33,341 bases of DNA from a virus. Where the stretch lies: positions 1-33,341 of the IMG/VR virus record IMGVR_UViG_3300017917_002445. One strand, written 5' to 3'. A model generated the notes under the pieces. The model saw only the letters and a program-made list of their open reading frames with translations. It did no database searches and was not told where the DNA came from. A program made the translations under genes and the position numbers. Positions 1,126 through 27,422 of the stretch are shown piece after piece; the first letter of the stretch is position 1, and each line of letters starts with the position of its first letter.

Positions 1126-1157
1126 TGCCCACCCATTTCATTGTTTTCTTTACACTA

Positions 1158-1186: not shown

Positions 1187-1199
1187 GTTGTAAAAATAT

Positions 1200-1863: not shown

Positions 1864-1893
1864 GTTTTACTCCTAAAAATAGTTTAACTCTTG

Positions 1894-2591: not shown

Positions 2592-2617
2592 TAGTTCCGC
2601 CTATATGTTTAGAATTG

Positions 2618-2797: not shown

Positions 2798-3012
2798 TAT
2801 TCCCCACTCTCCAATGTTGATATTTCTTTTTCTAAAGCAGCTATCTTTAAATTAATTGAAGACAAATCATTGTTAATTGTTCTTATGTTATCTTCTTTTG
2901 GTTTTGGAACTGCAGACTCTTCTAGCAAAGATAATTCAAGATTATATTTGTTGTATACAAGATTTCGCATGTGTTGCTTAACAACACCTATCTTTTCTTC
3001 ATTTGTAAGCAT
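2797..3012 (-). CDS. Small coiled-coil protein
   Basis: A 71-residue protein beginning 'MLTNEEKIGVVKQHMRNL', with a helical N-terminal half and a C-terminal coiled coil ('NNDLSSINLKIAALEKEIS'). No catalytic residues. ATG 3012 is preceded by a GGGGG run about 10 bases upstream, and by a TGGTATAAT extended -10 further up. It is coupled by TAATG to the 59-residue gene that follows. I recall similar N-termini among phage proteins of unknown role. Confidence 0.7.
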   Translation of the reverse strand: MLTNEEKIGVVKQHMRNLVYNKYNLELSLLEESAVPKPKEDNIRTINNDLSSINLKIAALEKEISTLESGE

Positions 3013-3035
3013 AGACTATTTACCCCCAGCTAATA

Positions 3036-3044
3036 ATTATACCA
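3036..3044 (-). promoter_or_regulatory. Candidate extended -10 promoter before the small coiled-coil genes
   Basis: TGGTATAAT on the minus strand: perfect TATAAT at 3036-3041 and the extended TG element. It straddles the stop codon of the DUF6065-like gene. No clear -35 box. The ATG at 3012 lies 24 bases beyond the -10, fitting a short leader that carries the GGGGG ribosome site. Confidence 0.45.
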
Positions 3045-3789: not shown

Positions 3790-4357
3790 ACTCATACTCC
3801 TTATCAAATGTCCAAAACGAAGCTACCGTATATCTCATGCCGTCTTCAATTTTTGTAACACCATGTAGATGATTATCGTCTCCTGGATGTGCAGCTAGCA
3901 TTCCTGACATAGGCACAATCTCAAAATCATATTGAGGATAGTACGTATGTCCACCTTTATAATTATCATTTAAATAAAGAATTACTCCAAAATCTCTATG
4001 ATGAAACCAGTCGCTTGCATCAGGAACCATCTTCATATCATCTGCATGAGGTGGCTGGTCCATTCCTGGAAACCATCTAATTAATTGAATAAGATCACAG
4101 TAAATTTCTTTGCCATCTCCATAATGTTCCTCAAGTGTGCTTTTTATTTTTTTTCTTATGTCATCAATTATTAAGGCTAAATCTTTGCGACCTTGAAGCA
4201 TCATGGACTGTGGACCTATAACCCTGTTGTTCCATACAGAACTTCCAGGCTCCCAACGCTCTGTTGTTTCTGCAAAGTTAATTAACTTATTTACATCCTC
4301 TACGCCTATAAAGTTTTCAAATGTTTTTGCTTTAAACAAAGATATGTCATTTTTCAT
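3767..4357 (-). CDS. 2-oxoglutarate/Fe(II)-dependent dioxygenase
   Basis: A 196-residue non-haem iron oxygenase of the prolyl-4-hydroxylase-like superfamily. The iron triad is visible: H104-A105-D106 ('PPHADDM') and H165 ('NHLHGVTKI'). R175 ('DGMRYTVASFW') is the 2-oxoglutarate-binding basic residue. The intervening strand 'FGVILYLNDNYKGGHTYY' is the family hallmark. The frame is open to ATG 4372, but ATG 4357 forms a clean ATGA overlap with the preceding stop, so I prefer it. It would hydroxylate a protein or small molecule with O2 and 2-oxoglutarate. The substrate is unknown, but the cluster directly follows a poly-proline tail protein gene. Confidence 0.85.
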   Translation of the reverse strand: MKNDISLFKAKTFENFIGVEDVNKLINFAETTERWEPGSSVWNNRVIGPQSMMLQGRKDLALIIDDIRKKIKSTLEEHYGDGKEIYCDLIQLIRWFPGMDQPPHADDMKMVPDASDWFHHRDFGVILYLNDNYKGGHTYYPQYDFEIVPMSGMLAAHPGDDNHLHGVTKIEDGMRYTVASFWTFDKEYEYDYSFIS

Positions 4358-4950
4358 AAAACAGGTATCCATTTCTGTGGGTACTGACCACTAAGCATAT
4401 CTAAAGGAGCTATACTAAATGATAGCATATTAGTTTTGTTTTTGTTATAAACTATTTTATGCCCCGCTTCAAATAAAATAAAATCTCCAGAGTTAACTGT
4501 AACCTTTGTGTCACCTATTGTTACTTCCAGATTATCAACATCATCTAAAAATGCCATTCCAGAAAAACAAGGGATTCTTATTCCTCCAGTGTCATACCAG
4601 TACTCAGAGCTAACCTCTTTCTGATACACAGAAGATATAAAATAAAACATTCTTTCATAGTTTATCTCGTAATGAGAACATGCAGACCTTAATGATTCTC
4701 TTACTGCCTTTAAAAGTGAATAAATATTTTTATCATATATGCCAAAATGATTAGATGAGCTTTGGAGTATACTTTGTTTATCTAGCAATCTTGAAGACTT
4801 TCCTCCATCAAAAAAATGAACATCTTCGTAAGAGTTTTCAAGGCTAATAATTTTATCCATAATACCCTTATAGTCAAAATTATTTTGTAACACATAAAGG
4901 CTGTTATTTTTTCTATACAGCACATCATTTTCTTTGAATATATTTTTCAT
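4354..4950 (-). CDS. Degenerate 2OG-oxygenase-like (double-stranded beta-helix) protein
   Basis: A 198-residue protein whose C-terminal half looks like the oxygenase fold: 'EYWYDTGGIRIPCFSGM', then 'VNSGDFILFEAGHKIVYN', with H164 where the second iron histidine would be. At the HxD position the sequence reads W-Y-D (118-120), so the first histidine appears to be lost. It is either inactive, uses another ligand set, or belongs to a related cupin-type family. ATG 4950 is chosen over the upstream in-frame ATG 4989 because it makes a TAATG overlap with the preceding stop. It sits among two intact oxygenases, which supports descent from one or a partner role. Confidence 0.55.
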   Translation of the reverse strand: MKNIFKENDVLYRKNNSLYVLQNNFDYKGIMDKIISLENSYEDVHFFDGGKSSRLLDKQSILQSSSNHFGIYDKNIYSLLKAVRESLRSACSHYEINYERMFYFISSVYQKEVSSEYWYDTGGIRIPCFSGMAFLDDVDNLEVTIGDTKVTVNSGDFILFEAGHKIVYNKNKTNMLSFSIAPLDMLSGQYPQKWIPVL

Positions 4951-5489
4951 TAGTCGGAAACCCTTCCACCAACTCTTTGATTGTACCAAATATAAGGATA
5001 GGCTGGTTCTCTTGGTGGTTCAATTTCAGAAGCAAGGTGCTTAAACATTCTTCCATTGTTTGGTAGCCACTTTGCTTGCTTACCAATGTTTACCATTGCA
5101 AGATAAGCTTTCTCTACTGCCTTAGCCCTGTCAGTACTTCCATCAGGAATTATGCCATTATAGTTATAAATGATTGATCTCATAAGTGTTCCAAATATTT
5201 TCCAGTACCCACGCCTTCTGTATTCTGGATTAGTATAAACTCTATTTGCCAGATGCTGTTTATCTAATGTGTAATACATGTCTGGATAATCATTAGGTAT
5301 GTAATCAGAAAAAATAACAGTACCCTTTTTATGTTTAGAGTTAATATATAGCATTGCAATTAAAGATAAGTCTGGGTGATCTTTTAAAAAAGTAACCTGT
5401 ATCCACGAGTCACCTAGTTCTTCTGGGTAGGAAGAAAAAGACGGAGTTGGAATCCCATTTGTTGTATCTGGAGTAATTTCTGTAGCCAT
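4950..5489 (-). CDS. Unknown protein with weak GNAT-like features
   Basis: A 179-residue soluble protein. The segment 'RVYTNPEYRRRGYWKIFGTL' resembles the acetyl-CoA-binding motif A of GNAT acetyltransferases (R/Q-x-x-G-x-G/A), followed by a helix; the match is partial because the second glycine is replaced. Elsewhere I recognise nothing. It is coupled by TAATG at both ends to oxygenase-family genes, so it may act on the same target. An alternative is a phage-specific family with no acetyltransferase role. Confidence 0.6.
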   Translation of the reverse strand: MATEITPDTTNGIPTPSFSSYPEELGDSWIQVTFLKDHPDLSLIAMLYINSKHKKGTVIFSDYIPNDYPDMYYTLDKQHLANRVYTNPEYRRRGYWKIFGTLMRSIIYNYNGIIPDGSTDRAKAVEKAYLAMVNIGKQAKWLPNNGRMFKHLASEIEPPREPAYPYIWYNQRVGGRVSD

Positions 5490-6058
5490 TATAGTAAAAA
5501 TGTTGTGACAACATATTTAGACCCATCTGTAATTGGGTTTACTTTATGAGTATTTTCTGCCGAAGAATTAAACACTAGAAGTGTATTTTTTCTAGGTTTA
5601 ATGGTAATACCTTTTTGCACAAACACTAATTCCCCACCTTCATAATCATCGTTGACATAATAAAACACAGAGATTTTAATTTTTTTATTAAGTGCGTTAT
5701 CACAATGTTCTTTCATGTGATGCCCTTTGTTATATTTAAGAATCTCTATATCATTATACCAATTAAAAGGAGTTTTGTCAACAACAAAGTCTTCAATGCA
5801 TCCTATAGCTGGAGCAAACATTCTTGATATTTCTATCTTTATGTTTTCATTATCTTTTCCTAAAGGCTTAAGGGTATATAGATTTTTAGATAGTTCTCTA
5901 TATCTTTTTATATTTAAGTTTGGATCAATGGTTGGAGTTGTCAAATTCCATATAACAGAGTTATCGGATAATAAATTAATTAATCTATCATTGTCGTCAG
6001 AAAAATTTTCATATATAGATATGCTGTTATCCAGATCTATTCTATTTAGACTAGTCAT
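5489..6058 (-). CDS. 2-oxoglutarate/Fe(II)-dependent dioxygenase, prolyl-4-hydroxylase-like
   Basis: A 189-residue oxygenase with a complete motif set: H118-C119-D120 ('MKEHCDN'), H171 ('NTHKVNPI') and a basic 2OG-binding residue K181 ('DGSKYVV'). 'VFYYVNDDYEGGELVF' is the typical core strand. Lysine rather than arginine at the 2OG site is also what animal collagen prolyl-4-hydroxylase uses, so activity is plausible. Start ATG 6058 has GGAG 6 bases upstream. The gene begins only 17 bases after the stop of the 941-residue poly-proline tail protein, the closest possible neighbour for a prolyl hydroxylase substrate. Specificity for proline is inferred from fold and context, not shown. Confidence 0.85.
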   Translation of the reverse strand: MTSLNRIDLDNSISIYENFSDDNDRLINLLSDNSVIWNLTTPTIDPNLNIKRYRELSKNLYTLKPLGKDNENIKIEISRMFAPAIGCIEDFVVDKTPFNWYNDIEILKYNKGHHMKEHCDNALNKKIKISVFYYVNDDYEGGELVFVQKGITIKPRKNTLLVFNSSAENTHKVNPITDGSKYVVTTFLL

Positions 6059-6075: not shown

Positions 6076-8901
6076 TTAAATAGATCTTGAGTCATGAGTT
6101 AACATTCTTTCTGTAAAAAACATATCGTATGGCTCACAGTCAATTGATACTACCTGATGATCAACAGTTACCTTTTCAAGCAATGTAATTGGTGTCCAAT
6201 CCATAATAGCATAATCATACACCATGTCAGTATTTTCTACTGATAAAGAGCGAATAAACTGAGCTTCCTCATTTCTTTTTACAAGAATATAGTGCGTTTC
6301 TGAAAAAAGATCATTATTAATCGCTACAACAATTGGAGATATTGCTTTTACTACAGAAACAACAGTTGTTTCAACTATATTAATTTGTGGATTAGATTCT
6401 GCCCAGGCTAAAGCATTATTGACTGCTTGTGGATAAGATTCGTAAGGGAAACCAGATATATCTGCAGACAGCAGTTTATCACCTGGCTTAATTGATTCTG
6501 CTAATACTAATCCGCCAGAAGTTCTTACCATAGTAGATACATTAACACTCTTTCCTGGAGGTGGAGGAGGTGGTGGTGGTTCTGCTGGAGGTGGAGGAGG
6601 GGGTGGCGGTGGAGGAGGTGGAGGAGGAGTTCCACCACCTGATGCTAATGTGGTAAAAGATACAGACCCAGTATACGTATAGTTAATACGAACATCAAAA
6701 GTATAGTTTGATGAAGATGATAATCCAGTAACAACTGTTGAAGATCCAGTACCGCCTGATGCTAGCGCAAAGCCTGCAAACAATAACTCCCAGCTTGTTT
6801 GAGTTACTCCACTAACAGACCAATTTATTGTCGCTGCATCAGCAGTTATTCCTGAAGCAGATACACTAACAGTTACTGAGACTGGTGGAGGAGGGGGAGG
6901 AGGTGGTGGTGCTGTATTTCCAACAGTATAATATGATGAACTTGAATAAAAAGTTCCATAAGCAGTAGTTGCACCAACCGTTACAGTAGTGTAAACCCCT
7001 GCTGCACTGCCCTCAAACTCTGTTAGTGCAGAAGATCTTGAGCCAAGGTATTCATCATTTATACCTGAATAAAATGGACTAGGCAAAACATAGTCATTAT
7101 TTGTAGATATAGACCAGTAAGTTACTGGTTGATTGCATGACCAGTTAAACGTTGTTCCGCTAATACTAGAAGTAACAGATACAGAAACAGGTGGAGGTGG
7201 CGGTGGTGGGGGAGGAGGAGGGGCAGACTGCATTGTTATCGTGTTTGTTGTTATCCAAACTGATTCTGAATAATCATCTGCCATAGCTCTAACTTTAGCG
7301 TAGACAGAATCTCCAATTGATGCAGCCTGAACTCTTCCGCCAAAGCTTTCTGCTGTTGTAAAACCCTGACTGACACCATTCACAAACCACTCAACAGAAT
7401 GAACAATGATAGTCTTAGTCCAAGTTCCTAAATTATCTAAGTAAGCTGATGAAGTGTCAAGCTGAGTAACTGTTGGAGGAGTAATATTTGCTGGAGGTGT
7501 AGGAGCAACATATCCAGTTGCTTCTATGACATTTGAAGAGTATACTTGAGGAGAGGTTCCATATGAGTTTGTAGCATATGCATAAGCTCTAAAATATTGT
7601 GTGCCAGGTCCAGCATCTGTATTTGTAACGGTATACGTAAATGAGGTATTTGTTGCTGGATCATTTCCTGCAATTGCAAAGCCTCCAGTTGCATCATTGT
7701 TGGTTGCTGATTCAGATCTATATAGAAAAATGCCGTATGAGGTTGGATTACCTGACCATCCAGAAGTCTGCACAGTTAAAGTTCCACCAACTGCACCGCT
7801 TCCAGAAAGTGTAACAGTTCCACCTGCTGGTATAAATGGGTTAGTGGATGAAAGTGGTCCAACTGCATCTGAAGTTACAGGGTCTCCTGCTCCAAAATTG
7901 TTGGATGGGACAATCGTTACGCTGATATAATTATTTGCAAAAATACTACCTGCATAAAATGTTTCATTTGTAGAGCCTTGATGAGGAGTAAATGTTACTC
8001 CATCTTCTGAATAATTCCACTGATATGTATAAGTTGTTCCTGTAGCAAATCCTGATGGTACAGCTGTAAATGTTCCACCAATAGCCAAGTAGTCATAAGT
8101 AATTAATACGCTTCCCCCTTCTGGAACTCCATTTAATGAATAAATGTTTGAGTCATTTCCAAGGTAACCATTTGTATTGGTGTTGCCTGTTGATGGTATT
8201 ACTTTAAAGAAATACGATTTACCGTTTGTTAATCCTGTTACTGTAGCTTGAGATGTTGCCCCTGAGTATCCAGCAAAAAATGTCCAAGTTGGAGTTGTTG
8301 ACTGTCTATAGTAAACAAGGTGTCTATTTGCAAATTGCGATGGTGTCCAGGTTAATGTTGCTGTTGTTGTAGTAGAAGATAGCAAATCAAGGTCAGTAAT
8401 GTCTCTGCATGCTTCAATTTCTACTGGATCAGATTCAGATGAACCATCGTTGCCAGAGTTGCTATTAGTTGCAATAGATCTATATCTATAATAGTTTGTA
8501 GTATTTGGCGTAACATCTGCTTGTGCAATTAAATATGAATCATTTGTATTACTACTTCCAATTGCTGGGTTCACTGATGTTCCACCTGAACCTACTATAT
8601 TAGAATAATTCATATTGTCAGTGCTTTTTTGAATTATAAAGCTAACACTTGTTGAGCGAAACCAATGATATAGCTTTCCAGTTATTGTAGCTTTTCTAGT
8701 AGTGCTATTTGTTGTAAGTGTTGCCTCTACTTGTTTTTCAATGGTTGGAATTGGAGATGAAGAATAAACCATTTTCCAAACACTGGTGCCAGCTTTTACC
8801 CATACAGCTTTTGCCTTAGACCAAGTAGTTGTATTCTTTTTAATAAATACCTCAGTTGGCTCAACCCAAGTTGAAGTATTCTTTTTAACCCACAGTGCCA
8901 T
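6076..8901 (-). CDS. Tail fibre-like protein: WVK repeats, FN3 domains, poly-proline linkers, C-terminal Hint domain
   Basis: A 941-residue virion protein, probably at the tail tip. The N-terminus has three short repeats ('ALWVKKNTSTW', 'VFIKKNTTTW', 'VWVKAGTSVW'). A chain of Ig/FN3-like beta domains follows, for example 'LTWTPSQFANRHLVYY' and 'TGLTNGKSYFFKV'. Three poly-proline tracts lie at residues 561-571, 665-673 and 759-782. Residues 785-941 form a Hint domain: block A 'SVNVSTMVRTSGG' with 'IKPGDKLLSAD', block B-like 'SETHYILVKR', block F 'EPYDMFFTERMLTHD'. Ser785 takes the usual Cys position and the end is His-Asp-Ser rather than His-Asn-Cys. ATG 8901 is preferred over 8931, which would overlap the previous gene by 29 bases and start before the WVK repeats; neither has a strong ribosome site. 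Confidence 0.75.
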   Translation of the reverse strand: MALWVKKNTSTWVEPTEVFIKKNTTTWSKAKAVWVKAGTSVWKMVYSSSPIPTIEKQVEATLTTNSTTRKATITGKLYHWFRSTSVSFIIQKSTDNMNYSNIVGSGGTSVNPAIGSSNTNDSYLIAQADVTPNTTNYYRYRSIATNSNSGNDGSSESDPVEIEACRDITDLDLLSSTTTTATLTWTPSQFANRHLVYYRQSTTPTWTFFAGYSGATSQATVTGLTNGKSYFFKVIPSTGNTNTNGYLGNDSNIYSLNGVPEGGSVLITYDYLAIGGTFTAVPSGFATGTTYTYQWNYSEDGVTFTPHQGSTNETFYAGSIFANNYISVTIVPSNNFGAGDPVTSDAVGPLSSTNPFIPAGGTVTLSGSGAVGGTLTVQTSGWSGNPTSYGIFLYRSESATNNDATGGFAIAGNDPATNTSFTYTVTNTDAGPGTQYFRAYAYATNSYGTSPQVYSSNVIEATGYVAPTPPANITPPTVTQLDTSSAYLDNLGTWTKTIIVHSVEWFVNGVSQGFTTAESFGGRVQAASIGDSVYAKVRAMADDYSESVWITTNTITMQSAPPPPPPPPPPPVSVSVTSSISGTTFNWSCNQPVTYWSISTNNDYVLPSPFYSGINDEYLGSRSSALTEFEGSAAGVYTTVTVGATTAYGTFYSSSSYYTVGNTAPPPPPPPPPVSVTVSVSASGITADAATINWSVSGVTQTSWELLFAGFALASGGTGSSTVVTGLSSSSNYTFDVRINYTYTGSVSFTTLASGGGTPPPPPPPPPPPPPPAEPPPPPPPPGKSVNVSTMVRTSGGLVLAESIKPGDKLLSADISGFPYESYPQAVNNALAWAESNPQINIVETTVVSVVKAISPIVVAINNDLFSETHYILVKRNEEAQFIRSLSVENTDMVYDYAIMDWTPITLLEKVTVDHQVVSIDCEPYDMFFTERMLTHDSRSI
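6556..6627 (-). repeat. Proline codon tract (P14-Ala-Glu-P8)
   Basis: Twenty-four codons encode fourteen prolines, Ala-Glu, and eight prolines, directly before the Hint domain. All four proline codons are mixed, so the tract is selected at protein level rather than being a simple base repeat. It is the longest of three such linkers in this gene. Confidence 0.9.
6883..6909 (-). repeat. Proline codon tract (P9)
   Basis: Nine consecutive proline codons using CCA, CCT and CCC, linking two beta domains of the tail protein. Confidence 0.9.
7189..7221 (-). repeat. Proline codon tract (P11)
   Basis: Eleven consecutive proline codons of mixed type, linking the FN3-rich part to the next beta domain of the same protein. 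Confidence 0.9.
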
Positions 8902-8902
8902 T

Positions 8903-11900
8903 TTAGTATTGAACCCACAAATCTCCGACATATCCTGTTGATCCAGTTGGATCTGAAACGTGAACAGTGGATGTATCTTGATAGTATACAGCCATACCTA
9001 AGCTTAGCACACCAGTTACTGGATTTTCAACTATCATTCTTTGCCTTCCCAAAGGTCCCAATGGATACATTCCCATATAAGATGTACCACCTTGAGCAAT
9101 TGGGGTATCACTGTCTTGAAGGTTACCGCTTGAATCAATATATCCAGCTGTTGTTATTAACTGAGATTGACCATAGTAATTTACTACAGAGTTTCCTTGA
9201 AGAGGTAGTCCACTAATTAATGTTCCTGTAGAGCCAAGCTTGATCTGTGAGTAGCCAACGTAAGCACTTCCAACATTTCCTCCTTTAAACTCTGAGGTAC
9301 TAAGCAAAATCTCTCCATTTATATACTTAATATATGCTGAAGGACCTCCAAGGTTAAAAGTTCCATCATTGTCTAGATAATAACCATCAGACGTACTACT
9401 TACGCTAGTCTTTGAGCCACCATAAAGTGTACCCTTGAGTGTTGCATTCTGAGCATATAAATCTCCATTATGTTTTACCCAAAAATTAGGGCTTGATAAA
9501 TTTCCAGCTTTTATAGCATAATCAGTGTCATATCCTGCTGTAATAGAAATTCCCTTTGCAGAGTTAGCAGTTTTAGAAACAACCTTTAGCTCTTGATTTG
9601 GTGAGTCTAAAGTTATATAGTTTGAAGACATTACTCCGTCAGATATCAACCATCCAGAGGATTCAGTTTCTCCAAATAAAGCTTTACGGCTCCATAGGGT
9701 AACTCCAGTTGTTGTTCCTACTGTAATTGGACTTGAATAAATTTTTGTTGTTGCTGTTCCGCCTGAATTTAAAGCAAGGATTCCCTCATCCCCAAGTTTT
9801 AAGGTGCCTGTACCTGTTGCAATTAGATATCCATTTGATCCAAGATTAATGTTTGCGTTAAAATATGATTGCTGATTTACTGTTATTCCACCAGTAATTG
9901 TGGCTGAACTTGCTGTTAGGGCTCCAGTATTCGTTACCTTAAACACTCCGCTGCCTGCATTAATTAGGTCTGATGATGTTCCATCACCAATAATACTAAT
10001 CTTTCGTGCTGTTACTGCTCCTGCTGGTGTAACAGAAAATTTAGCCAGATCATCTGAATTACTTGAAGAGCTTGCCCCTGCCCAAAATGCATAGGTACCA
10101 CTAGCAGAAAGACCAGTATAAGTTGAACCACTTACATACCCATCATTCTGGATTGCAGTTGGCGATATTGTCCAATCTCCAATGAGTGCTCTTTTTGTAA
10201 TAAAGGTAGGTTCATTTGTGCCTGCGCTATTAATTATTTCGGTTGTCCAGTCACCACTTGCATCATAGGCAAACAGTCCATCTTTATTAAAAAATACTTG
10301 AGGATATTCAGTCTCATCTCCAGGGCCTGAAAAAATTGATCCGTCTGTTTGTATTTTAATAGGATTTTCAATTAAAGATAATGTTCCAACATCTATTGGG
10401 GTTACTTCAACACCACTTGTTTGTCCAGTTTTCTCCATGCTGTAATATGAGTTATTATTGTATTGATCATAAAACCTTACAATCACATATCTTTTATCGT
10501 TTGTTGGAGTTATTATGGTTGCTGGACTTAAGCCAGAGTAAATCATTTCGTTATCGTTTGTTGGTATTACTGTCCAAGCAGTTGACTTTTCATAAACCTC
10601 TAGTCTGGTTGCTCCTGATGGCATATCAAAGTCAACTACATATCCATTAGATATAGGACTTACTCTAAATACTCCTGTTGGAGAGTTAACATTTGGAGTG
10701 CCTAAAGTAGGATAAATACTGGCCAAAGGATTTGCTCTTGTTATTGGACCAGATGAGATTGATGATGTTGATTCTACACCTTGTGCGGAAAGGGCAGAAA
10801 TATATACCTTAAACTTTGAGTAGTATGTACCAAACTGTCCATACATATCTAATGATTTAATTACAAACTCTGTATCTAAAGCATCAAGTATTTTATAATA
10901 GAATGCAGAAAGAGATGTGCTTTCTACGTCATTAACATAAGGAACAAGCTTAACCTTAATTGTTGTTCCCGCATTTTCTGAGGGCCTAACAAAAGAAACC
11001 TTTATGTCGTTACTTTGCCATTCTGCTGTTGCTGTATTAAAATTTGTTGGTGGTGTTGTATTTGTTGGCATAAACTGATCTGGAGTAATATCAGCAATTT
11101 CAGAATAAACAGAGTTATTGGCAGACTTAGCAACATATTTAACTCTAACCCATCTGTGTGCTCCATCTGGTGTGTAGATAACTGAAGTTGCATTAGTTGT
11201 AATTGGTGATGCCTGAACCCATCCCTCTGTCAAGCTTACATTTGCTTTTACTGTTTCTGTTGTAACCTTTTCTTCAATTATTATTCCGTAAAAATTTTTA
11301 GTAAGTGCTTCTGCAAGGTTTGCTGAGTCTAGAGTTACTGTGTAATAGTCAACACCTTTAGTCATAGTAAATACTGGTTTTGGAAAACTTGACACATAAA
11401 GTGGCACATCAGCAAGAACAAAATCATTGCACTTATAAAGGCTACAGGTTGCAACCCCCACCTGGTCAATATTTTGAGAAAGCTCTATTCCTGTTCTTTG
11501 TATATCTGCGTCTTCTATTGTAAGCGTTTGCTCAGAAGAAGAGTTGGATAAAAATGTTGATTCATATCCATACCCTGCCCTAAGAAAATAATCTTTATTG
11601 TTTGTCTTATCTCTAACCTTAACCAAGAACCTATGTATACCCTGATTTGCTGAATCACTTGGATCAAACGTAAACGTAAGAACTATGTTATCTCCAGACC
11701 AAGTTGCAACAAGGTCTGAAACATTTCCTGGCAAATCAGTTACTGCAGATTCTCCAGCTATATTTGCAACTGGATCATAAGTTGATCCATTAGGGCTTAT
11801 GGTTGTTGTTCCTCCAACTAATAGAGGTACACCGTTTAATCCTACAACTTCAATTTCAGCACCAATGGTGGCCTTAGTTAATCCAATTTGATCCCACGCC

Positions 11901-16804: not shown

Positions 16805-17271
16805 TATATCTCCGTAAACTCAATAGTCATATCAACATAGTCAGCAAGCCTAGTTCTGTGGTTAAGTGTTTTTGAAAAAGCCGTAATAAATACTGTATAA
16901 ACCTGTGATTCTGTTTGTGCTGTTTTAAAATCATTATCTGCTGGTATTGATCCAGATGTAGTGATTTCAGAACTATTTACTTTGACATAAATAGGCTCTT
17001 TGCAGTTAGCATTATAAAAAGCTTCAAGCCAAGCTGGTCCATGGTTTTTATCAACGCACTCTGAAGTTTTTGTTGGAACATATTTCCAGTCTGTAGAAAT
17101 CTTATTCTTTTTTGCTACAACATATTTACGCATCTTGCCATTAGCCATGCGCTGTGAAGTCTCAATAAGTTCTGGGGTATAAGATATCTGACCTCTATTA
17201 TGGTCTGTAAGTTTGTACCATGTAGAGTTGTCTAGGGAAACCTCAATACCCGCACTTATTGGATAAACCAT
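16804..17271 (-). CDS. Minor/distal tail protein
   Basis: A 155-residue protein starting 'MVYPISAGIEVSLDNSTWY'. It is beta-rich with a tail-tube-like ending ('ADYVDMTIEFTEI'), as expected for a distal tail or tube-capping protein between tape measure and hub. ATG 17271 overlaps the tape measure stop as TAATG, with AGGTGG about 8 bases before it. Its own stop overlaps the start of the hub gene. Role is assigned from position plus general pattern; I cannot name a specific family. Confidence 0.6.
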   Translation of the reverse strand: MVYPISAGIEVSLDNSTWYKLTDHNRGQISYTPELIETSQRMANGKMRKYVVAKKNKISTDWKYVPTKTSECVDKNHGPAWLEAFYNANCKEPIYVKVNSSEITTSGSIPADNDFKTAQTESQVYTVFITAFSKTLNHRTRLADYVDMTIEFTEI

Positions 17272-20200
17272 TAAATTACCACCTTGTTAGTTTGATTATT
17301 TTGGGAAGCCACTAACTTAAGCTTTGCCATTACTTGGTTTGCTATATCGTTGGCACTTGTATTTCCACCGTTAACAACCATATCAATATTATACACTGTA
17401 TTGGAATTTGATGTTGAAGAATTAATGTCAGCATCTCTTCTAAGTCTATTCATATAGTCTTCCTGATATACCCCTTCAGTTCCAGACTTAAGTACCGCAC
17501 TAAGTTCTTGTCCATATGGACCAGGGATTGGACCATTCCAACTATGGAATTTAGGAACCATTCCACCAGTTGATAGGTTTGCTACCTTTGCATATTCAAG
17601 TAAATCTTTAAATTCTTTAGAATCTATTGATGTGTCTTGTGTTACATTGTAGCGTTTCATTGCCTCTATCCAGCTTCTTCCCTTTGATAAAAGTGCTGGA
17701 GCCAAGGTTGTATCTGATATTAATGCTTCTACAAAACCTGGATCTCTAAAATACCCGTGACCATCTTGCATTGATTTCATGAGTAATCTACTCAATGTTT
17801 TGCCGTAAAGATTTGCAGATGCATCACCAAGATCAATTCCTGGAATAGTAATGTCTTTTGGTATTTTTCCATTTGCATTTTTTTCTAGTAATCCACGGAA
17901 ATATGGGTAGTCAGGTGTTCCGTATAGGAAGTCTTTAAATCTTGCATATAATGAAGGTGATTTGCTTGCCCACAATTCATAATTGTCAATAATAAATTTA
18001 TCAACCATTTGACCTTTACCATCAAGAATAAGTTTATCAATCATATCTCTTAATGACCAGAATCCTCCAGCAGAATCTGCAGCATGAACAGCTTCATGGG
18101 CTACAGCTTTAGCTCCAACTTCATCTGGCAAATGAATTGAATGGTCTGATCCTCCCCTATAAAATCCTCCTGTCAATGGAGGCATTTCTTCTCTAAAGAG
18201 TTGTGGTGTTCTTGAAATACCGTAGTATTCCATTATTGAGCTGATTACTCTTTCTACCTCTGAAGATTCTTTCAATACTGTTCCTTTTACAGAAGGTAAA
18301 GTAGAAGGAGCATCCTCAAATGTTACTCTTACACCGCTGGCAATAGCTCTTTCCTGCATGGCCTCTAAACTATTTAAGTCTTTAATGTTTGTTTTAAAGT
18401 CACCATGCAATACTGCCATCTTAACAGCTTCAAGGCTATCAACCCAAGCTTTACTTGATGTACTAACACCAATTTGTTCTAACAAGCGATGACTGTTAAG
18501 GTCTGACTCCATAATACTAATGTCAGATCCATTATGTTTTTCAACCATTATGCCGTTATTTTCTGCCCACTTAAGATAACTATTATTAAGGTCAAAGTTG
18601 TCTAGTGAGTGTTGACCTTGACCAATATATGGTGTATCTATTCCAAGCATTTTTTTAAGTTCTTGTCTTGACCACTCTAGGACTTCTTTTTCCTCTCTTC
18701 CAGCCATACCGTCAAGCCATGGCTGTGATGGTGTCCATCCTTCTGGTGCATCAGGGTTATTTCTCATTACTAAAGCAGCTCTATCTTCATCAGTATACTC
18801 TGACTTAAGCAAACGGTATATATCTTTTGTCTTTGGGTCTACCGTTACTAATGAAGGTTTTTCTCCTGGCTTAATTAAACCTTTTCTTATTAGTTCTGCT
18901 GTATATGATGCTTCATCATAAAAAGATGGTCTAATTACTGGTGGGTTAGGGAAATGCAAAGCTTTACCTGGACCAAGTGCCCAATACATATCTATCGTGT
19001 CTGCATTGTATGGAAGACCATTAGATTTTATTAGTGTTTCCAGATCCATTCCAATTTCTGAATAATTTGTACCACCAGTTCTTTCTATATGTCCAGCAAC
19101 TACACTTTCTGCAGTTGTGTGTACGGTGCTTCTTGAGTGTCCTGCTGGCAAACCTTCTTCATCAAATTTACCCATTGTGTGATATCCATGAGGATATATG
19201 TCAACACTGCCATCAGCATTACGAACTACTGGATGTGGTGTTGCATGGAATATTGGAGCCTGTGAAGTATTAATAGGCTCTACACCTTCTAAGAATGATG
19301 ATGGGGCTTTTGCTGCTGCTATTCTTTCTGCTTTATTTTTTTCAATCATAGCAACAAAAGCATTTCTTCTCTTTACAATGTTTATTTGTGCTTCAATATT
19401 TCCATTTAGGTAAGCCAGCATTTCTGCAAAACCATCTGTATTTTCTTTATTAAGTTTTGCTCCAGTATCATCCATACCAACTGCTGATGCCATGCGAACA
19501 GCAAATTCTTCTTCTTCAGGTCCAAATGTTTTATTTTTAAAGTTTTCAAGCATTCTCTTAGCATATGCATTGTTAGGGTTTAGCCTTAATGCTTCTTCAA
19601 GTAATCCTATTGGAGTTGTTGGTACAGCATGTGCACCAACTTCTGCTGTTGCTGAAACATCTTCTGTATGACCCTTAAAGCTAATTCTACTCTTATCTCC
19701 ACCAACTGTATAAATTGGATAACTATATCCATCAAGATCAACCATTTCTTTTTGGAATATTGCTTGCTGCTGTTCAGCTTTTGTAAAGGCTCCAGCAACC
19801 TTGGGAGCTGAAATACCTGGTTTTGGCTTTAACCCAGAAGAGACACCAACGCCTGAGCTGAATGGTTTTGAGAATCCCAGCATTGCAGATACTCCAAGGT
19901 TTTGAACAAGCTTTGGAAGTGCTGCTCCAATGTATTTAAATGATCCTGTTGGTAGTAATGATCCTAATCCTGGAATTCCAAATTGAGTTCCTAATGTTTC
20001 TACACCAGTTCTTCCTAATGCAGAAGCTGCTGCACCTCTTAATCCTCCAGTAAGAACATTAACTAGCCCATAAATATATTCTCCAGCACCTGGAAGTAAA
20101 CCTTGATTTTCTCTGTTATATGCATTTGGTCCCATCAAAAGGCTTAGCAAGCCTTTCTTTGTTCCTTCAAAAATTGGTCCAGTACCTTGGTTTTGTCCGC

Positions 20201-23200
20201 CAAGTAATGACTTCCAGTTTGCACCTGTTGTTATTGTGCTCCAGAAAGATGGTGTTTCTGGTTTTACTGTTTTAAACTTTTTCTTTGGGTCAAGTGCGGA
20301 CATTGATGGAGGAACAACAACTCCATTTGCACCATGAGAATGACCTACTGGCCCACCCTTGTGGAACTTAGACACCATTCCACCTTTTGCAAGATTATTT
20401 CTAACTAAATAATCATAAAAATCAAAATATTCATTAGACACTCTTGAGGTGTTTTGATTTATACCATAACGATCAAGAATTGTTACCCAGTCTTTTGCTT
20501 TTTGTTTTACTGCAAATGGTACTGCAGCTCCAGCTGACTCATATGCACTTGTTAGGTATCCCTTAATAAACTCTGGGTCCATCATGTACTCATACCCAGG
20601 ACCTAGTTTTGTTGATGCATCCATTAATTGTCTTAATGTGCTCTGATTATATATTGCATTATTTCTAAATGGATCAAGAATATTTAATTCATTTCTAGTT
20701 GATTTTGGAATTCTATAAATATTTCCATCTGCAGTTCCTTCTAAGATTCCTCTAAAATATGGGAACATAGATGGTTGTTCTTTTTGTAAGTATTGTTCTA
20801 TTTCATAATACAGTGATGGACTTTTTGCCTGAAAAAATTCATTCATTGCACTTGCAAACCTTACAGCTTCATCTATGCCTTTTTCTTGAGCTATGTATCT
20901 TGACATTTTTTTGTATGACTCAAATGAGCTAGTATAGTCTACATGGTGAAATGCTTCATGTGCTACTGTGAATGGAGTTGTTTTCTTTCCTACATTCATG
21001 GATTCGTCTGCTACATTATAAAAACCAGATCCTTTATCTAAACTTCTATTTTTATTAACTTTAACATTTCTTGGTATAGTTGGTGCATTTGTGTTTTTGA
21101 CTGCACTAACTACTTCTTGTATATCTTTTTCTCTTTTTATTACTGCCTCATATGGAGAATCTTTAAAGAATCTGCGAAGTGCTGCTGGCATTGCTTTTTC
21201 TGTAGCACTTAATGTAGTTTTTGTTGCAGCTGATCCAGCAATACCTGCTCCACCTCTAATGGGAAAAAATGCTGTCAATACTGATGCTATATCCATACCC
21301 TTTGCAAAACCTGGTCCAGCTGCTGCATAGGGATTTTCAAATCTTTCATTTCCAAATAGTCTTGCAATTTGTCCAACCATAAACATTTCTGCAGTTGTAC
21401 TTATGTCTTTTTCGCTAGCTTGAAATAAACCACTATTCTTTGTTCCATTTGCAAGAATAAATTTACCTATGGACTTAATGGTGTCCATTATGCCAAAGCT
21501 AACAGCTCCAAGCTGTCCATTTTGAGACATTTTATCGCCAAGCTTATCCCACCAAGACTTAGAGTCTATTGGCTCTGTTGTGCCACTACCAAATCTTTGA
21601 ACAAGTCCTCCAGTAGCAAACTTTTGGGTATTTACATTATTAAGGAATCCTGTTCCATATTGTTTTACAGCAGAAGCTCTAATTACATACTCACCATTTG
21701 AAAGCATAGCTGGAATAGAATCAGATGTGCCAGTTCCTGGACCATTTACGCTACCGCCAGGTTCATAGTGACGAATATATCCGCCATCTGCTTTTTTGAC
21801 TGGCTCACCCATTCTGATGAAGTCATCTTTTCCTTGTTTCTTTAAAACCTTAAACGTATATGTAAGCCCATCTTTTCCTTTTAGGTCAACAATAAGGAAT
21901 TTTTCATCTTTCTGAAATTCAATTTGACTTCTAACATACTCTTCAAGTATATCCATTTCTGTTTTTAATGTTGGATTTTTAAGGCGAGTTATTTTTTCTA
22001 TAAATGATTCATTCCATGCTTTAGAAGGATCAATCTCGGAGGCTGATACTGGGCCAGCTGGAACTGGTACCCCGTTGTCGCCAGTTATATATCCAGCAGT
22101 TGGCTTATTTTTTTCTACGTATGCTTTTATTACTGCTGGGTTTGTTGATACTGGCTGTGGATTTGCAAATGTACCTAGGCTTCTTAAATCATTAGGGCCA
22201 CCAAATACTGGAGGTAAGTTATCTACAATCTTGTCCGCCCCATCACCTACGGCATCTGATATCTTTGTTGCTGAATCATTAATTGCAGATTTTACTTCTT
22301 CTAGTTTATCTATTTGCTCCTGAAGCTTGTTAGCCTGTGCCTCTAGCTTAGCAAGTCTTGCATCATTATTAAATTCTGCAATGTTTGCAAGTTTTTGCTG
22401 TTCAAGGTTTGCAGCCTCAATGTAATTACCCGACATTTTTGCTTCAGCAATTTTTTGATCAAGGTCTGCTTGTTTTTGGCTAAAGTCATTTTGTTTTTTA
22501 TTTTGCTCAGTTATAGCTCTTTCAATCTTTAAAATTTTATCTAGTTCTGCTTTTTTCTTTTTAAGAGCATCTATGGCTTTTGTTGTTGTTTCAAGTTGTT
22601 TTGTCTGCTCTTTAGTTAGAGCAGATGTTGTTTGTGTTTCTTTTTTCTGGAACTTGTCTGGATTGTCTGCTAAGTATTTTGTTGCCTCTTCAATTAATTG
22701 CTGTGCTGTTGTTTTTTTAGTAATGTCTTGTCTAAGTCCTCTTTGCCAAGCTTGAAGAATATATGCTCCTCCAGAACTAGTCATACCAGGGATTGACATA
22801 AGAACCTTAGCTGCAGCTGCCATCTCTTTATTGCCAACACTAAGGTATGCATAATACATTGCGCTTAAAGCTTCAGCTGCATTAAGTCCAGCAGCTGCAA
22901 TGCCATTGATCACTCCCTCTAGTTCTGTAAGTGAACTTGCTTGATATGCAACAGACATTATTTGTGTAAGAGATTCACCAAGGGCAACTGAGTTTCCTGC
23001 TGCATTCTTTAATGATTTTGTTACTGCATCTGTTTGATTCTTAAAGGAAATAAAAGTTGATCCAACCATTGCAAGATGACCGCTAGATGATAATATTAAG
23101 TCTAGTGTTTTTTGTGCTTGGTCTGGTTTGATTTGTCCAAGAGCAACTTGAGTTGTAACAAAAGCTTGTGCTATTTCTTTAATCTTTTCTGGGTCTTTTT

Positions 23201-26200
23201 CATTGGTAAGGCCTGTGATTAAGTCTTTAAGAGGATTTCCTTCTGGTAAAGATTCAAGCATCTGTTTAAATGCTGCAAGTTCTTGTGTTGAATAACCAAA
23301 GCTCTTGCCTAATTCCATTACTCCATTTTTAGTTGATAGAGAGGTAGCATTAAGATTAGCTAATGTTATATCTACTGTTGCTGCTACGTTTCCAAAATAT
23401 GTTGCAAGATCTGCGCTGGCCTGGAACACAGCTTCTTGCATAGCCTTTTGCTGTCTTTCCTTTTCTAGCAAATCACCAATAGCAGCAGTAACTAATCCTA
23501 CCGCTGCTCCTGCAGCAGCTCCCCAAGGTCCAAACATTGCTCCCATTGCAGCCATATTGAGTGAGCTTGTAACCATGGCTTTTCCTGTAAAATCAGGTAG
23601 TGCTGACATAGCCATGCTTCCAGCCATAATACCCATACCAGCCATCATTCCACCACTACTAAGTCCTGGCTTAGATTTTTCTTTTAGCTCATTAAGCTTC
23701 TTTCTTCTTTCTTCTCTTCTTCTTTCTTCCGCTGTTAGCCCAGCAACAATAGGAAGCATAATTGAGTTTTCATTAGGAAGAACACCAATTTGTGCTGGGC
23801 CCTGTTCTCTAGTTGCAACTCTTCTTGGTTTTTTAGCTGATTCCTTAACTATTGCTGTATCTATAGACTGTACTGCAATTTGACCAACTCTTGTACCTGA
23901 TGCTCTTACTGAACCTTCTAGTGCAGCTAATTCATTTCTTAGTCCAGCGATGATATCTCTTGCTGTTTGTCTTGTTGCTTCTGATGGAGATTTTGTCTTT
24001 GCTCCCTTTGCAACTCCAGTTACTGCAGCCTCTCCAACTCTTATTCCAGCTTTTTCTGCCTCTATTACAACTTGACGAGCAAGCTCGTGAACATCTCCAG
24101 CATATTGATCAAGTTTAATTCTTGTTGTTTTAGAAAGTTTATCGTACAATGCATCAAGCTCTGCAATGCTCTTAAGCCCTGCTGCTTTAGCTGCTTCTGG
24201 GGTCCAATTAAAAGATTGCTTAACAGGATAATATCCTGGAATAACTGATTGTACGTCAGCATTTACTCTATCCTTTCTTCTCCCATCTGCATAAGATCCA
24301 GGAAGAGCTTTTCTTCCTCCAGTTCCCTTTCCTTCTGGCAGAACTCCAATTTGTTTTTGCTCTTCATATGCAGCTTCCATTCTAGCATTGCCTTTAATAG
24401 CCCTTTCAGTGCTTTTTGTGACAATATCTTCCATGTCTTCTGCAGTCATTACTGTTTCTTCCAACAGCTTTTTACGCATCTTAGTTTCTATTAATGCTTT
24501 TTGATCTCTCTTTTTTAGCTGCTGTTCTTCTTCTGTTAAAGTTATTCCAATTTTTTCAAGGCTTCTAGCTTCTAGAATTTCATTTTTCTTTCTTGCAGTT
24601 AATTTACCTTGGTCAAATAAAGCCTGCTCTTCTTTAGTTAAAGCTACAGAAAGGTCTACTCCAGCTTGCTCTGCAAGTGTTTCTAATGCTTTTCTAACAT
24701 TTGCGATTGGTGCTTTCATTACCCTTTCAAGATTTTTTTCATCTGTAGATTCTAATAAAAAGTTGCTTATACCTTCTGTCATACTTTCTTTAAGTTTTTG
24801 TCTTGCTACAGATATTTCTTCTTCACTTGCCCCGCCAGTTCTCATTCTTTCTATCAAAGGAGAATTAAAAGCATCTCCTCTTTCAACTGCGTCTGCCTGA
24901 AATAATCTTAACGGTGCTACTTTATCAGTTCCAGTTTCACCAATTAGCTGGTTAAATTCTCTTGATGCAACATTTACTCTGTTATCAAGTAAAGTAATTA
25001 AACCTCCATTAGCATTTTTTATTAATTGATCTACTGCGGTTTTAATGTTTGGAGGAAGTTCTTTTCCTAATTGAGACTCTATAGTTGCCATATGATCTAA
25101 CAATTGAGAAGCAGTCATATGTATTGGACCACCAAAATGAGATAGCTCATATCCTCTTGCTACTGGCTGCGCTTTTACGTTTCCTGTGGGTTCTTTTCTC
25201 CACTTTGCTTTTTCTACAACATTATCTTCAAATTTTGATGTATTTACTTCTTCGTCACCAGAACCAAACTTAGGAAGTTGTCCAGAAACAAGTGCACGAA
25301 CAACATCTGGGTGTCTTGCAACTTGTAGTGCTGGAATAATAGCTTCACCATTAGAAACTCTTGCAAGAATTGAGTCGGACGTTCCTGTGCCTGGGCCACG
25401 AATTATTACTCCATCGCTACCGTTTGCAAAACCTGGAAGCTTTGGAGTTTTCATCATTCCAGGGTTCATAGTAGCAAATTTTGCACCTGCTACTAAAGCT
25501 TGTTCATAAGCAACACGAAGCTGATTTACAGCTGTAGCCTCAACAGAGAATTGCTGTGTAAGTCTTGCATGTGACTGCTCAAGAGAGTGAGCTGCTGCAG
25601 CTGCTTCTAGCTGCTCATTTGTCATGTACTGAGTTTGTTCTCCAAGGTTTTGGCTTTGTCCAGTTAGTTTTTGATAGCCAGTTCTTAGAGTTACAAATAG
25701 CTTTAATATGTTTGCAATTCCGTTTGCTAACAAACCAAATGTCATGAGGAATACTGGTCCAAGACCACCTATAACTCCTACAGTTATTGCGATAAACTTT
25801 TTTGTTCCTTCAGACAACCCATTAAATTTATCCAACACTTTGCTAACAAATTCAAGGATTGGTGCAACAGAGTTCATAAAGACTTCTCCTACTGGAGCAA
25901 GAGATGCCTTTAGTCTTGCTACTGCTGCTTCAAATTTAATCAGTGCTGACTCTGATGTTACGCCTAATTCTTTTGCTGTAAGTGTTGCAAGATTAGAAGC
26001 TGATTGACCTGCTAAATCAAGAACTCTAGAAGCTTGATTTCCTTGCTGGATTACGTTACTCAGTAATGTAGAAATACGAGCAAACTGAAACTTTCCAAAC
26101 ATTGTTTCAATTGCTCTAGCTCTTGATAGTGGATCAAGTTTATCTAATTGCTGAGCAAACTCAATTACAGTTTTCTTTAGATTGCCAGCATTTTTTGTAA

Positions 26201-27422
26201 CAATAGCATCAATATTTATTCCCATGCTTCCAAGCATTGCAGTTGCTTTGTTGGTTGGGTTAATTAAAGAAGCAAGACCAGACTTAAGTGCGTTAGCACC
26301 TTCTGATGCATTAATTCCGCCTTCCTTCATTGCTGTAAGGAAGAATGCTAAATCTTTTACATCTCCGCCAAGAGATTGAATAACTGGAGCTACCTTTGGA
26401 ATCGCAGTTGTAATATCATCAAGAGATGTAACTGTTTGGTTTTCTACTGCGTTAAGGAAGTCAATTGTTGTAGCAAGTTCTGTTGAAGAAATCTTAAATG
26501 CATTTTGTAGCGAAATAGTTGTTTCTAGTGCTTGCTGTTGCTCAATCTGTCCAAGAATTGCAAGCTTTGTTGCTGCTTCTGTTTGAGCCAAAAGGTCTGC
26601 ATTTTTAAAGCCTGCAGCAGCAGCTTGTGAGGCTAAGCCAACTGTCTTTGATACTTCAACGCCATACTTTGTATATCCGTCTGCAAGAGCTTTAATTCCC
26701 TCTAATGCTTTTTCTGTTTGTACTGGGTCTGTTCCTAGATCACCATATACTTTTCTAAACTTAATAACTTCTGTTTCAAGGTCTCTAAAAGCCTTAGATG
26801 CTGCTGCTCCAAAAGCCATAAGAGGCAAAGTAAAACCAACCATAAGCTGACGACCAGCCCACTGAGTATTTTTACCAAAATTAAGAAGCTGTGTAGAGCC
26901 CTGTCTCATTAACTGATTAAATAATGCTTGCTTTTGTGCTGCAATTTGTGTTTGCGTTGCAAGGTCTGTCATGTCAAGGACAAGAGGTCTTACAGCAATT
27001 GCTTTCATTGCTCCGTTAGCATCACGACCAAGTTTAATATACTGAGTCTGTAATGTTTTTACACGCTCTACTGCAACCTTATTGAGTGTATCTAGCTCAG
27101 ACCTAAACTGTCCACCAAATGTTTTTGTAGATGCAGCAGCATACCTAAAGTATTCACGCATTGAAAGCTTGTTGCCTTCAAGGGCTTTGGTAAATGATTC
27201 TGCTGTTGTGTTAACAGTACGAAGCTCTGCAGAGAATGAACCAATAGCATTAATACTATTGATAAGGTTTCTCTGCAGAGACTTCTGTGCTAATGCTGCT
27301 GCTTCATTTGATTTGGCTATAGCAAGGTTAAATTCAGAGATCTGTCTTTGCAGTCTCTTTAACTCATCTAAAGCCTGTGAGGAATCAATGTTTACGCCAA
27401 TATTAGCATTAACGTCAGACAC
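17271..27422 (-). CDS. Tape measure protein (TP901-type) with duplicated HExxH domains
   Basis: A 3,383-residue tape measure that sets tail length and is expelled ahead of the DNA. Residues ~190-530 match the TP901 tape-measure core ('FLTAMKEGGINASEGANALK', 'ARAIETMFGKFQFARI'). Hydrophobic segments lie at ~540-570 and ~1260-1315; a long K/E/Q-rich coiled coil lies at ~1585-1720. GPGTGTSDSI occurs twice (~675 and ~1893) within Gly-rich 'SNGE' repeats. Two homologous ~240-residue domains (2099-2344 and 3056-3286) each carry HExxH (2155-2159 and 3109-3113) and a later 'YFRGxLE' motif. Between them, about 2720-2900, is an unrecognised domain with 'RSTVHTTAESVVAGH'. GTG 27422 is the start, with GAGGTG about 8 bases upstream. 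Lengths of this order suggest a tail of hundreds of nanometres. Confidence 0.9.
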   Translation of the reverse strand: MSDVNANIGVNIDSSQALDELKRLQRQISEFNLAIAKSNEAAALAQKSLQRNLINSINAIGSFSAELRTVNTTAESFTKALEGNKLSMREYFRYAAASTKTFGGQFRSELDTLNKVAVERVKTLQTQYIKLGRDANGAMKAIAVRPLVLDMTDLATQTQIAAQKQALFNQLMRQGSTQLLNFGKNTQWAGRQLMVGFTLPLMAFGAAASKAFRDLETEVIKFRKVYGDLGTDPVQTEKALEGIKALADGYTKYGVEVSKTVGLASQAAAAGFKNADLLAQTEAATKLAILGQIEQQQALETTISLQNAFKISSTELATTIDFLNAVENQTVTSLDDITTAIPKVAPVIQSLGGDVKDLAFFLTAMKEGGINASEGANALKSGLASLINPTNKATAMLGSMGINIDAIVTKNAGNLKKTVIEFAQQLDKLDPLSRARAIETMFGKFQFARISTLLSNVIQQGNQASRVLDLAGQSASNLATLTAKELGVTSESALIKFEAAVARLKASLAPVGEVFMNSVAPILEFVSKVLDKFNGLSEGTKKFIAITVGVIGGLGPVFLMTFGLLANGIANILKLFVTLRTGYQKLTGQSQNLGEQTQYMTNEQLEAAAAAHSLEQSHARLTQQFSVEATAVNQLRVAYEQALVAGAKFATMNPGMMKTPKLPGFANGSDGVIIRGPGTGTSDSILARVSNGEAIIPALQVARHPDVVRALVSGQLPKFGSGDEEVNTSKFEDNVVEKAKWRKEPTGNVKAQPVARGYELSHFGGPIHMTASQLLDHMATIESQLGKELPPNIKTAVDQLIKNANGGLITLLDNRVNVASREFNQLIGETGTDKVAPLRLFQADAVERGDAFNSPLIERMRTGGASEEEISVARQKLKESMTEGISNFLLESTDEKNLERVMKAPIANVRKALETLAEQAGVDLSVALTKEEQALFDQGKLTARKKNEILEARSLEKIGITLTEEEQQLKKRDQKALIETKMRKKLLEETVMTAEDMEDIVTKSTERAIKGNARMEAAYEEQKQIGVLPEGKGTGGRKALPGSYADGRRKDRVNADVQSVIPGYYPVKQSFNWTPEAAKAAGLKSIAELDALYDKLSKTTRIKLDQYAGDVHELARQVVIEAEKAGIRVGEAAVTGVAKGAKTKSPSEATRQTARDIIAGLRNELAALEGSVRASGTRVGQIAVQSIDTAIVKESAKKPRRVATREQGPAQIGVLPNENSIMLPIVAGLTAEERRREERRKKLNELKEKSKPGLSSGGMMAGMGIMAGSMAMSALPDFTGKAMVTSSLNMAAMGAMFGPWGAAAGAAVGLVTAAIGDLLEKERQQKAMQEAVFQASADLATYFGNVAATVDITLANLNATSLSTKNGVMELGKSFGYSTQELAAFKQMLESLPEGNPLKDLITGLTNEKDPEKIKEIAQAFVTTQVALGQIKPDQAQKTLDLILSSSGHLAMVGSTFISFKNQTDAVTKSLKNAAGNSVALGESLTQIMSVAYQASSLTELEGVINGIAAAGLNAAEALSAMYYAYLSVGNKEMAAAAKVLMSIPGMTSSGGAYILQAWQRGLRQDITKKTTAQQLIEEATKYLADNPDKFQKKETQTTSALTKEQTKQLETTTKAIDALKKKKAELDKILKIERAITEQNKKQNDFSQKQADLDQKIAEAKMSGNYIEAANLEQQKLANIAEFNNDARLAKLEAQANKLQEQIDKLEEVKSAINDSATKISDAVGDGADKIVDNLPPVFGGPNDLRSLGTFANPQPVSTNPAVIKAYVEKNKPTAGYITGDNGVPVPAGPVSASEIDPSKAWNESFIEKITRLKNPTLKTEMDILEEYVRSQIEFQKDEKFLIVDLKGKDGLTYTFKVLKKQGKDDFIRMGEPVKKADGGYIRHYEPGGSVNGPGTGTSDSIPAMLSNGEYVIRASAVKQYGTGFLNNVNTQKFATGGLVQRFGSGTTEPIDSKSWWDKLGDKMSQNGQLGAVSFGIMDTIKSIGKFILANGTKNSGLFQASEKDISTTAEMFMVGQIARLFGNERFENPYAAAGPGFAKGMDIASVLTAFFPIRGGAGIAGSAATKTTLSATEKAMPAALRRFFKDSPYEAVIKREKDIQEVVSAVKNTNAPTIPRNVKVNKNRSLDKGSGFYNVADESMNVGKKTTPFTVAHEAFHHVDYTSSFESYKKMSRYIAQEKGIDEAVRFASAMNEFFQAKSPSLYYEIEQYLQKEQPSMFPYFRGILEGTADGNIYRIPKSTRNELNILDPFRNNAIYNQSTLRQLMDASTKLGPGYEYMMDPEFIKGYLTSAYESAGAAVPFAVKQKAKDWVTILDRYGINQNTSRVSNEYFDFYDYLVRNNLAKGGMVSKFHKGGPVGHSHGANGVVVPPSMSALDPKKKFKTVKPETPSFWSTITTGANWKSLLGGQNQGTGPIFEGTKKGLLSLLMGPNAYNRENQGLLPGAGEYIYGLVNVLTGGLRGAAASALGRTGVETLGTQFGIPGLGSLLPTGSFKYIGAALPKLVQNLGVSAMLGFSKPFSSGVGVSSGLKPKPGISAPKVAGAFTKAEQQQAIFQKEMVDLDGYSYPIYTVGGDKSRISFKGHTEDVSATAEVGAHAVPTTPIGLLEEALRLNPNNAYAKRMLENFKNKTFGPEEEEFAVRMASAVGMDDTGAKLNKENTDGFAEMLAYLNGNIEAQINIVKRRNAFVAMIEKNKAERIAAAKAPSSFLEGVEPINTSQAPIFHATPHPVVRNADGSVDIYPHGYHTMGKFDEEGLPAGHSRSTVHTTAESVVAGHIERTGGTNYSEIGMDLETLIKSNGLPYNADTIDMYWALGPGKALHFPNPPVIRPSFYDEASYTAELIRKGLIKPGEKPSLVTVDPKTKDIYRLLKSEYTDEDRAALVMRNNPDAPEGWTPSQPWLDGMAGREEKEVLEWSRQELKKMLGIDTPYIGQGQHSLDNFDLNNSYLKWAENNGIMVEKHNGSDISIMESDLNSHRLLEQIGVSTSSKAWVDSLEAVKMAVLHGDFKTNIKDLNSLEAMQERAIASGVRVTFEDAPSTLPSVKGTVLKESSEVERVISSIMEYYGISRTPQLFREEMPPLTGGFYRGGSDHSIHLPDEVGAKAVAHEAVHAADSAGGFWSLRDMIDKLILDGKGQMVDKFIIDNYELWASKSPSLYARFKDFLYGTPDYPYFRGLLEKNANGKIPKDITIPGIDLGDASANLYGKTLSRLLMKSMQDGHGYFRDPGFVEALISDTTLAPALLSKGRSWIEAMKRYNVTQDTSIDSKEFKDLLEYAKVANLSTGGMVPKFHSWNGPIPGPYGQELSAVLKSGTEGVYQEDYMNRLRRDADINSSTSNSNTVYNIDMVVNGGNTSANDIANQVMAKLKLVASQNNQTNKVVI
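17565..18257 (-). other. Tape measure metallopeptidase-like domain, copy 2
   Basis: Residues about 3056-3286 of the tape measure. 'AVAHEAVHAAD' gives H3109, E3110 and H3113. Downstream 'YELWASKSPSLY' and 'YPYFRGLLEKNANGKI' align with copy 1, and the domain ends 'NLSTGGMVPKFH'. A glutamate in the YFRGxLE motif is a candidate third zinc ligand (gluzincin-like). Catalysis is not proven. Confidence 0.6.
20391..21128 (-). other. Tape measure metallopeptidase-like domain, copy 1
   Basis: Residues about 2099-2344. 'TVAHEAFHHVDY' gives H2155, E2156 and H2159. Downstream 'NEFFQAKSPSLYYEI' and 'FPYFRGILEGTADGNI' match copy 2, as does the terminal 'NLAKGGMVSKFHKGG'. The two copies are about 950 residues apart, so this is an internal duplication with the motif kept in both. 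Confidence 0.6.

Follow-up and report, generated by a model that had tools for sequence, protein, structure and literature searches.

Tape measure proteins (TMPs) are known as the rulers of phage tails, as formers of membrane channels and, sometimes, as wall hydrolases. The delivery of enzymes at infection is usually described for other carriers, namely head proteins and injection particles. The locus described here raises the question of why a TMP should contain two domains with the signature motif of zinc peptidases (HExxH), and where such domains might act. The window—the whole stretch of DNA analyzed, 33,341 nucleotides in length—is an entire IMG/VR virus record. The isolates listed are 126–134 kb long, and the record, being far shorter, is probably a fragment of a genome. 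By TMP, the nearest isolates are Streptomyces phages (~30% identity), and the G+C content of the window is low (37%); from these two properties, the host is probably freshwater and actinobacterial. We refer below to the two domains as D1 and D2, to the module between them as E, and to the sequences compared by numbers prefixed ‘L’.

The tape measure gene and its neighbors

The gene that contains the two domains was taken for a tape measure gene in an earlier note on this DNA, and this identity is borne out. The N-terminal part of the protein matches the Pfam family PhageMin_Tail (7e-26, residues 252–443), and PHROG tape measure families match it with E-values down to 7e-96. It is the largest of the tail genes, and it lies among others of that kind, between a major-tail-protein-like gene (phrog_2175/885) and a gene for a minor tail protein (phrog_10359). 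Its features are collected in Table 1.

Table 1. Features of the tape measure gene, with positions in the window and residues of the encoded protein
Feature	Residues	Position	Strand	Remarks
TMP gene	1-3383	17271..27422	-	3383 aa; GTG start; uninterrupted frame
Conserved TMP core	1-722	25257..27422	-	53-81% identity to compared relatives over residues 1-722 or longer
TMP linker (‘bead’)	1881-1943	21594..21782	-	GG..GPGTGTSDSIPAMLSNGEYVIRASAV; putative cargo starts after it
D1, first zincin-like domain (putative)	2086-2349	20376..21167	-	Homology to D2
D1 HEAFH	2155-2159	20946..20960	-	Asp2162 at +3 (20937-20939)
D1 Glu2195, candidate third zinc ligand	2195	20838..20840	-	NEFFQA; aligned with Glu3149
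E module	2546-3016	18375..19787	-	Conserved TDGFA, RS[TS][VL]H
D2, second zincin-like domain (putative)	3031-3288	17559..18332	-	Homology to D1
D2 HEAVH	3109-3113	18084..18098	-	Asp3116 at +3
D2 Glu3149, candidate third zinc ligand	3149	17976..17978	-	YELWAS; aligned with Glu2195
Conserved TMP C-terminal tail	3276-3383	17274..17597	-	58% identity to L053 1808-1909

Several other genes of the window caught our attention. A 951-aa protein (6076–8931, minus strand) contains fn3-like repeats and long runs of proline; its C-terminal ~160 residues appear, by eye, to be of the Hint/intein type, an impression that Pfam does not confirm. Just downstream of this fn3-repeat gene are two genes for 2OG-Fe(II) oxygenases (5489–6058 and 3767–4372, minus strand; Pfam 8e-17 and 4e-6), and a DUF6065 gene is present at 3037–3807 (Pfam 8e-38).

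Two homologous domains

D1 and D2, each of about 260 residues, are homologous. BLASTP aligns them at E = 2e-25, with 29% identity over 295 columns, and their Smith–Waterman score of 236 is far above the scores of shuffled sequences (33 ± 5; maximum 58, n = 500). Both contain KSPSLY, PYFRGxLE and HExxH, the last followed by Asp at +3 (HEAFHHVD in D1, HEAVHAAD in D2). The earlier note had called the two domains homologous, had placed both HExxH motifs within one open frame, and had pointed to the shared KSPSLY and YFRG[IL]LE stretches, and in all of this it was right. It had also ended each domain with a GGMV-KFH segment; this belongs instead to the TMP's own recurrent linker, and lies outside the peptidase. 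Further residues that could plausibly belong to an active site, which the note did not mention, are aligned between the copies: Asp2162 with Asp3116, and Glu2195 with Glu3149, each Glu being 36 residues past the last His of HExxH.

Zincins whose third ligand is Glu (the gluzincin type) show, as their ligand pattern, HExxH and a Glu further along the chain. Both domains have this pattern, in alignment, and the similarity between the domains peaks around these putative active-site motifs. By motif, then, D1 and D2 are probably zincin-like. Within these two sequences of one protein, the candidate zinc ligands agree: both domains keep H, E, H and the aligned candidate third-ligand Glu, and a working zinc site is thus plausible in each. 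The earlier argument that retention of HExxH favors function over relic is supported in part, at the level of these residues; the zincin fold itself is putative.

That the inserted domains merely lengthen the TMP, their HExxH motifs being relics or coincidences, we consider very improbable. The length of the tail is set by that of the TMP, so length variants are tolerated, and the D1/D2 family is one that libraries do not recognize and whose activity is only predicted; but at ~30% identity both copies have retained H, E, H, the Asp at +3 and the Glu, and are closest to each other around these motifs. Nor is coincidence an attractive explanation: shuffled versions of the TMP contain 0.024 HExxH motifs on average, and at least two in 0.015% of shuffles, which makes two by chance very unlikely. 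The inserted modules, moreover, recur in varied combinations, as we describe later.

Fold prediction and searches for relatives

Structure prediction had been proposed as a check on the two domains. With D1 and D2 as a two-sequence input, AlphaFold produced models of low confidence (pLDDT 42.7 and 45.8). In both of these, one helix covers HExxH and another covers the Glu segment, in zincin-like placement; in the model of D1, short strands also occur ahead of HExxH. Foldseek returned zero matches for the models, whose low confidence makes this search uninformative. In Pfam, neither D1 nor D2 was matched at E-values up to 10, and NCBIfam gave no relevant match to either. The E module has no match in either library.

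Relatives of D1 and D2 were sought at several levels. None was found by protein search among GenBank phages and plasmids, by peptide or DNA pattern search of IMG/VR and GTDB genomes, or by a D1/D2 profile in 57 relative viral records and three bacterial genomes, or in 397 genomes of the phylum containing an Acidimicrobiales genome. As a control, the profile recovers D1 and D2 themselves from the window. The sole pattern match, L161, has no open frame of interest. Comparison of the profile with viral HEAxHxxD proteins is circular, this set having been selected by motif, and we exclude it as evidence.

A proposed exchangeable region of the tape measure

Relatives of the virus, identified through the TMP N-terminus or the capsid protein, number in the hundreds in IMG/VR. 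Among 55 non-redundant, intact TMPs with their 3' end within the locus, lengths range from 1668 to 3614 aa; most are of 1.7–2.5 thousand aa, and five exceed 2600. In the window, D1, E and D2 occupy an insert of ~1,400–1,550 aa, preceded by coiled coil and linker, and followed by the C-terminal tail. In the TMP of L053, this tail comes almost directly after the coiled coil and there is no insert; the window protein has ~1,550 residues extra. In that of L002, the first 722 residues of which are 81% identical to those of the window TMP, the linker is followed by a different, unrelated module of ~280 aa, which is also present in L007.

Modules are shared among these proteins in mosaic fashion. Copies of E occur in the TMPs of L016, L078 and L206 (28–37% identity), where the neighboring modules differ and D1 and D2 are absent. 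A module with the motif YHGSQPTG is common to L007, L010, L070 and L078, and another, HGGNL...AIDFGR, occurs twice in L075 (2386–2682 and 3155–3568) and once in L078 (1926–2337), with 50–60% identity. In the long relatives, modules are separated by copies of one TMP linker, and their combinations vary. This linker is repeated between modules in L070, L075, L076 and L078, where TMP PHROGs match the copies at as many as three places in a single protein; the bead of the window TMP likewise matches segments of several TMP PHROGs. The pattern GG-h-h-x-K-[YF] is found past residue 1400 in 27 of the 59 compared TMPs, including that of the window. The sequence AEGGMMYPG in T5 pb2 (L209), which follows the reported T5 cleavage site, resembles the GG-h-h motif of the linker, and by analogy TMP linkers might be processing sites.

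Other modules take this place in relatives, so that the region has the character of a cassette whose effectors can be exchanged; the insert may accordingly be read as exchangeable cargo of the tape measure. The earlier note treated the twin proteases as a system in themselves. The twin domains are real, but the content of the insert varies among relatives, and the unit would seem to be the exchangeable region rather than the pair.

Motifs of the HExxH kind occur in the TMPs of two other relatives, at residue 2456 of L070 (HEIVHH) and residue 2009 of L079 (HELIHI), both in cargo regions. Neither region matches the D1/D2 profile, and two of 121 TMPs is no above-chance count. By eye, certain modules of the relatives looked kinase-like (HGGNL..IDFG), ADP-ribosyltransferase-like (YHGSQPTG..GFFGTS), CHAP-like or acetyltransferase-like; Pfam, PDB, NCBIfam and PHROGs confirm none of these readings, and we do not adopt them. 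Simple hydropathy shows no strong membrane segment within the cargo region of the window, and we make no claim for a pore-forming segment ahead of the cargo.

Possible roles of D1 and D2

The position of E, flanked by D1 and D2, invites the idea that the two domains are maturation proteases, which cut the TMP during assembly or after ejection and separate E and the tail from the ruler. Precedents exist: autoprocessing is the main proposal for the zincin domains of polyvalent proteins, with host-directed action as the other (PMC5512222), and the TMPs of T5 and lambda are cleaved during tail morphogenesis (PMC10038345). However, E is present without D1 and D2 in three relatives, which argues that its release is independent of them; and the TMPs of this group, in which HExxH is otherwise confined to L070 and L079, generally do without such a domain. 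We judge pure self-processing an unlikely explanation, and lean instead to a host-directed or a dual role.

OmpA family domains usually bind peptidoglycan, and one such domain is present near the C-terminus of the L068 TMP (Pfam 1e-16, residues ~1930–2020). It is the sole module of the relatives to be identified independently, and a tape measure is an unusual location for a peptidoglycan-binding domain. Its presence would fit with a role of the cargo in envelope penetration, in which D1 and D2 would be virion-associated peptidases that open the peptidoglycan or S-layer for passage of the DNA. To our knowledge, peptidoglycan metallopeptidases have mostly LAS, M14, M15 and M23 motifs, and not the HExxH of zincins, and the motif of D1 and D2 makes envelope opening less likely. 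Muralytic TMP domains are known in T5 pb2—in its C-terminal part—as well as in TM4 and phiIPLA35 (PMC10038345, PMC6116005), but pb2 contains no HExxH, and its similarity to D1 and D2 is at chance level (best local alignment, E = 1.7). Most relatives, too, are missing such a domain, and a role in envelope penetration appears to us decidedly unlikely.

The reading that we prefer, and to which we give an even chance, is that D1, E and D2 are the cargo of an ejected TMP, that D1 and D2 are zinc endopeptidases, and that the cassette is exchangeable. We infer that the last third to ~40% of the TMP—D1, the E module and D2, before the C-terminal tail—would be packed within the tail along with the rest of the TMP, would exit with it at infection, and would act in the host envelope or the cytosol. 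D1 and D2 would bind zinc in a site of the gluzincin type, and their most likely substrates following ejection would be proteins of the host, the TMP chain (thereby freeing modules), or both. Certain observations weigh against this cargo reading. The fold models are of low confidence, the libraries match none of D1, D2 and E, and the searches described above found no relative of D1 and D2. The three TMPs that contain E without D1 and D2 indicate that twin domains are unnecessary for its release; for most modules of the other relatives, no activity could be assigned; and ~1,400 extra residues per chain must be accommodated by the tail.

More broadly, and with some doubt, the TMP of a widespread group of phages might be regarded as a modular injector, in which effector modules placed between repeated linkers are exchanged among phages in the manner of polymorphic toxins. 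Twin zinc proteases and a third module would be injected in the present case, and would process themselves or host proteins at entry. If true, long-tailed phages could bring several enzymes into play as soon as infection begins, each TMP chain supplying one set. Such TMPs would also be a source of unstudied enzyme families, D1/D2 among them.

Comparison with known systems

TMPs with enzyme domains, and multidomain proteins that are injected, are already known; the novelty, if our reading is right, would lie in the carrier and in an arrangement that allows exchange. Our search of the literature, thin on subscription journals and preprints, found no phage tape measure described with HExxH peptidase domains or with interchangeable cargo. 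Three known systems come closest.

T5 pb2 is expelled at infection, and its C-terminal part, which has a metallopeptidase motif, is muralytic and can act outside the tube (PMC10038345). It resembles the window TMP in having an enzymatic C-terminal part that leaves with the TMP, a reported metallopeptidase motif, and a similar GG-rich C-terminal segment. The two differ in construction. In pb2, a protein of 1219 aa, the C-terminal part is short and is annotated IPR000834, a zinc carboxypeptidase entry, whereas the window TMP contains a multi-module insert that varies among relatives.

Polyvalent proteins, described by Iyer et al. in 2017 (PMC5512222), are similar in that they are large, multidomain phage proteins for which entry into the host is presumed, and in that zincin-like MPTase domains, sometimes in several copies, are scattered among their other domains. 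A widespread phage-type MPTase clade among them has an Asp three residues past HEXXH (PMC5512222), as do both D1 and D2. By alignment only, the His that ends strand 2 in this clade has a possible counterpart in D2 (SIHL), and is Asn in D1 (SMNV). Pfam gives no match to D1 or D2, and NCBIfam no relevant one, and so, the likeness of motif notwithstanding, we do not assign them to this clade. The carrier differs also: here it is a TMP, and PMC5512222 nowhere uses the term tape measure. By analogy, we read D1 and D2 as domains that may work like those of polyvalent proteins, on another carrier.

The contractile injection systems of actinobacteria offer the third comparison. In Streptomyces injection particles, a TMP-like effector ends in a nuclease (PMC11126660), and in TMP-like effectors of such particles the C-terminus bears a nuclease or some other domain open to exchange (PMC11126660, PMC13277306). 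Tme (PMC11126660) and the Sle1 group (PMC13277306) share with the window protein a TMP-like carrier and a variable C-terminal functional domain—a ‘reconfigurable platform’. They differ in belonging to non-viral particles; the window protein is the TMP of a phage, with several modules between linkers and a normal TMP tail retained at its end. If the cargo reading is correct, it would be a phage counterpart of these effectors.
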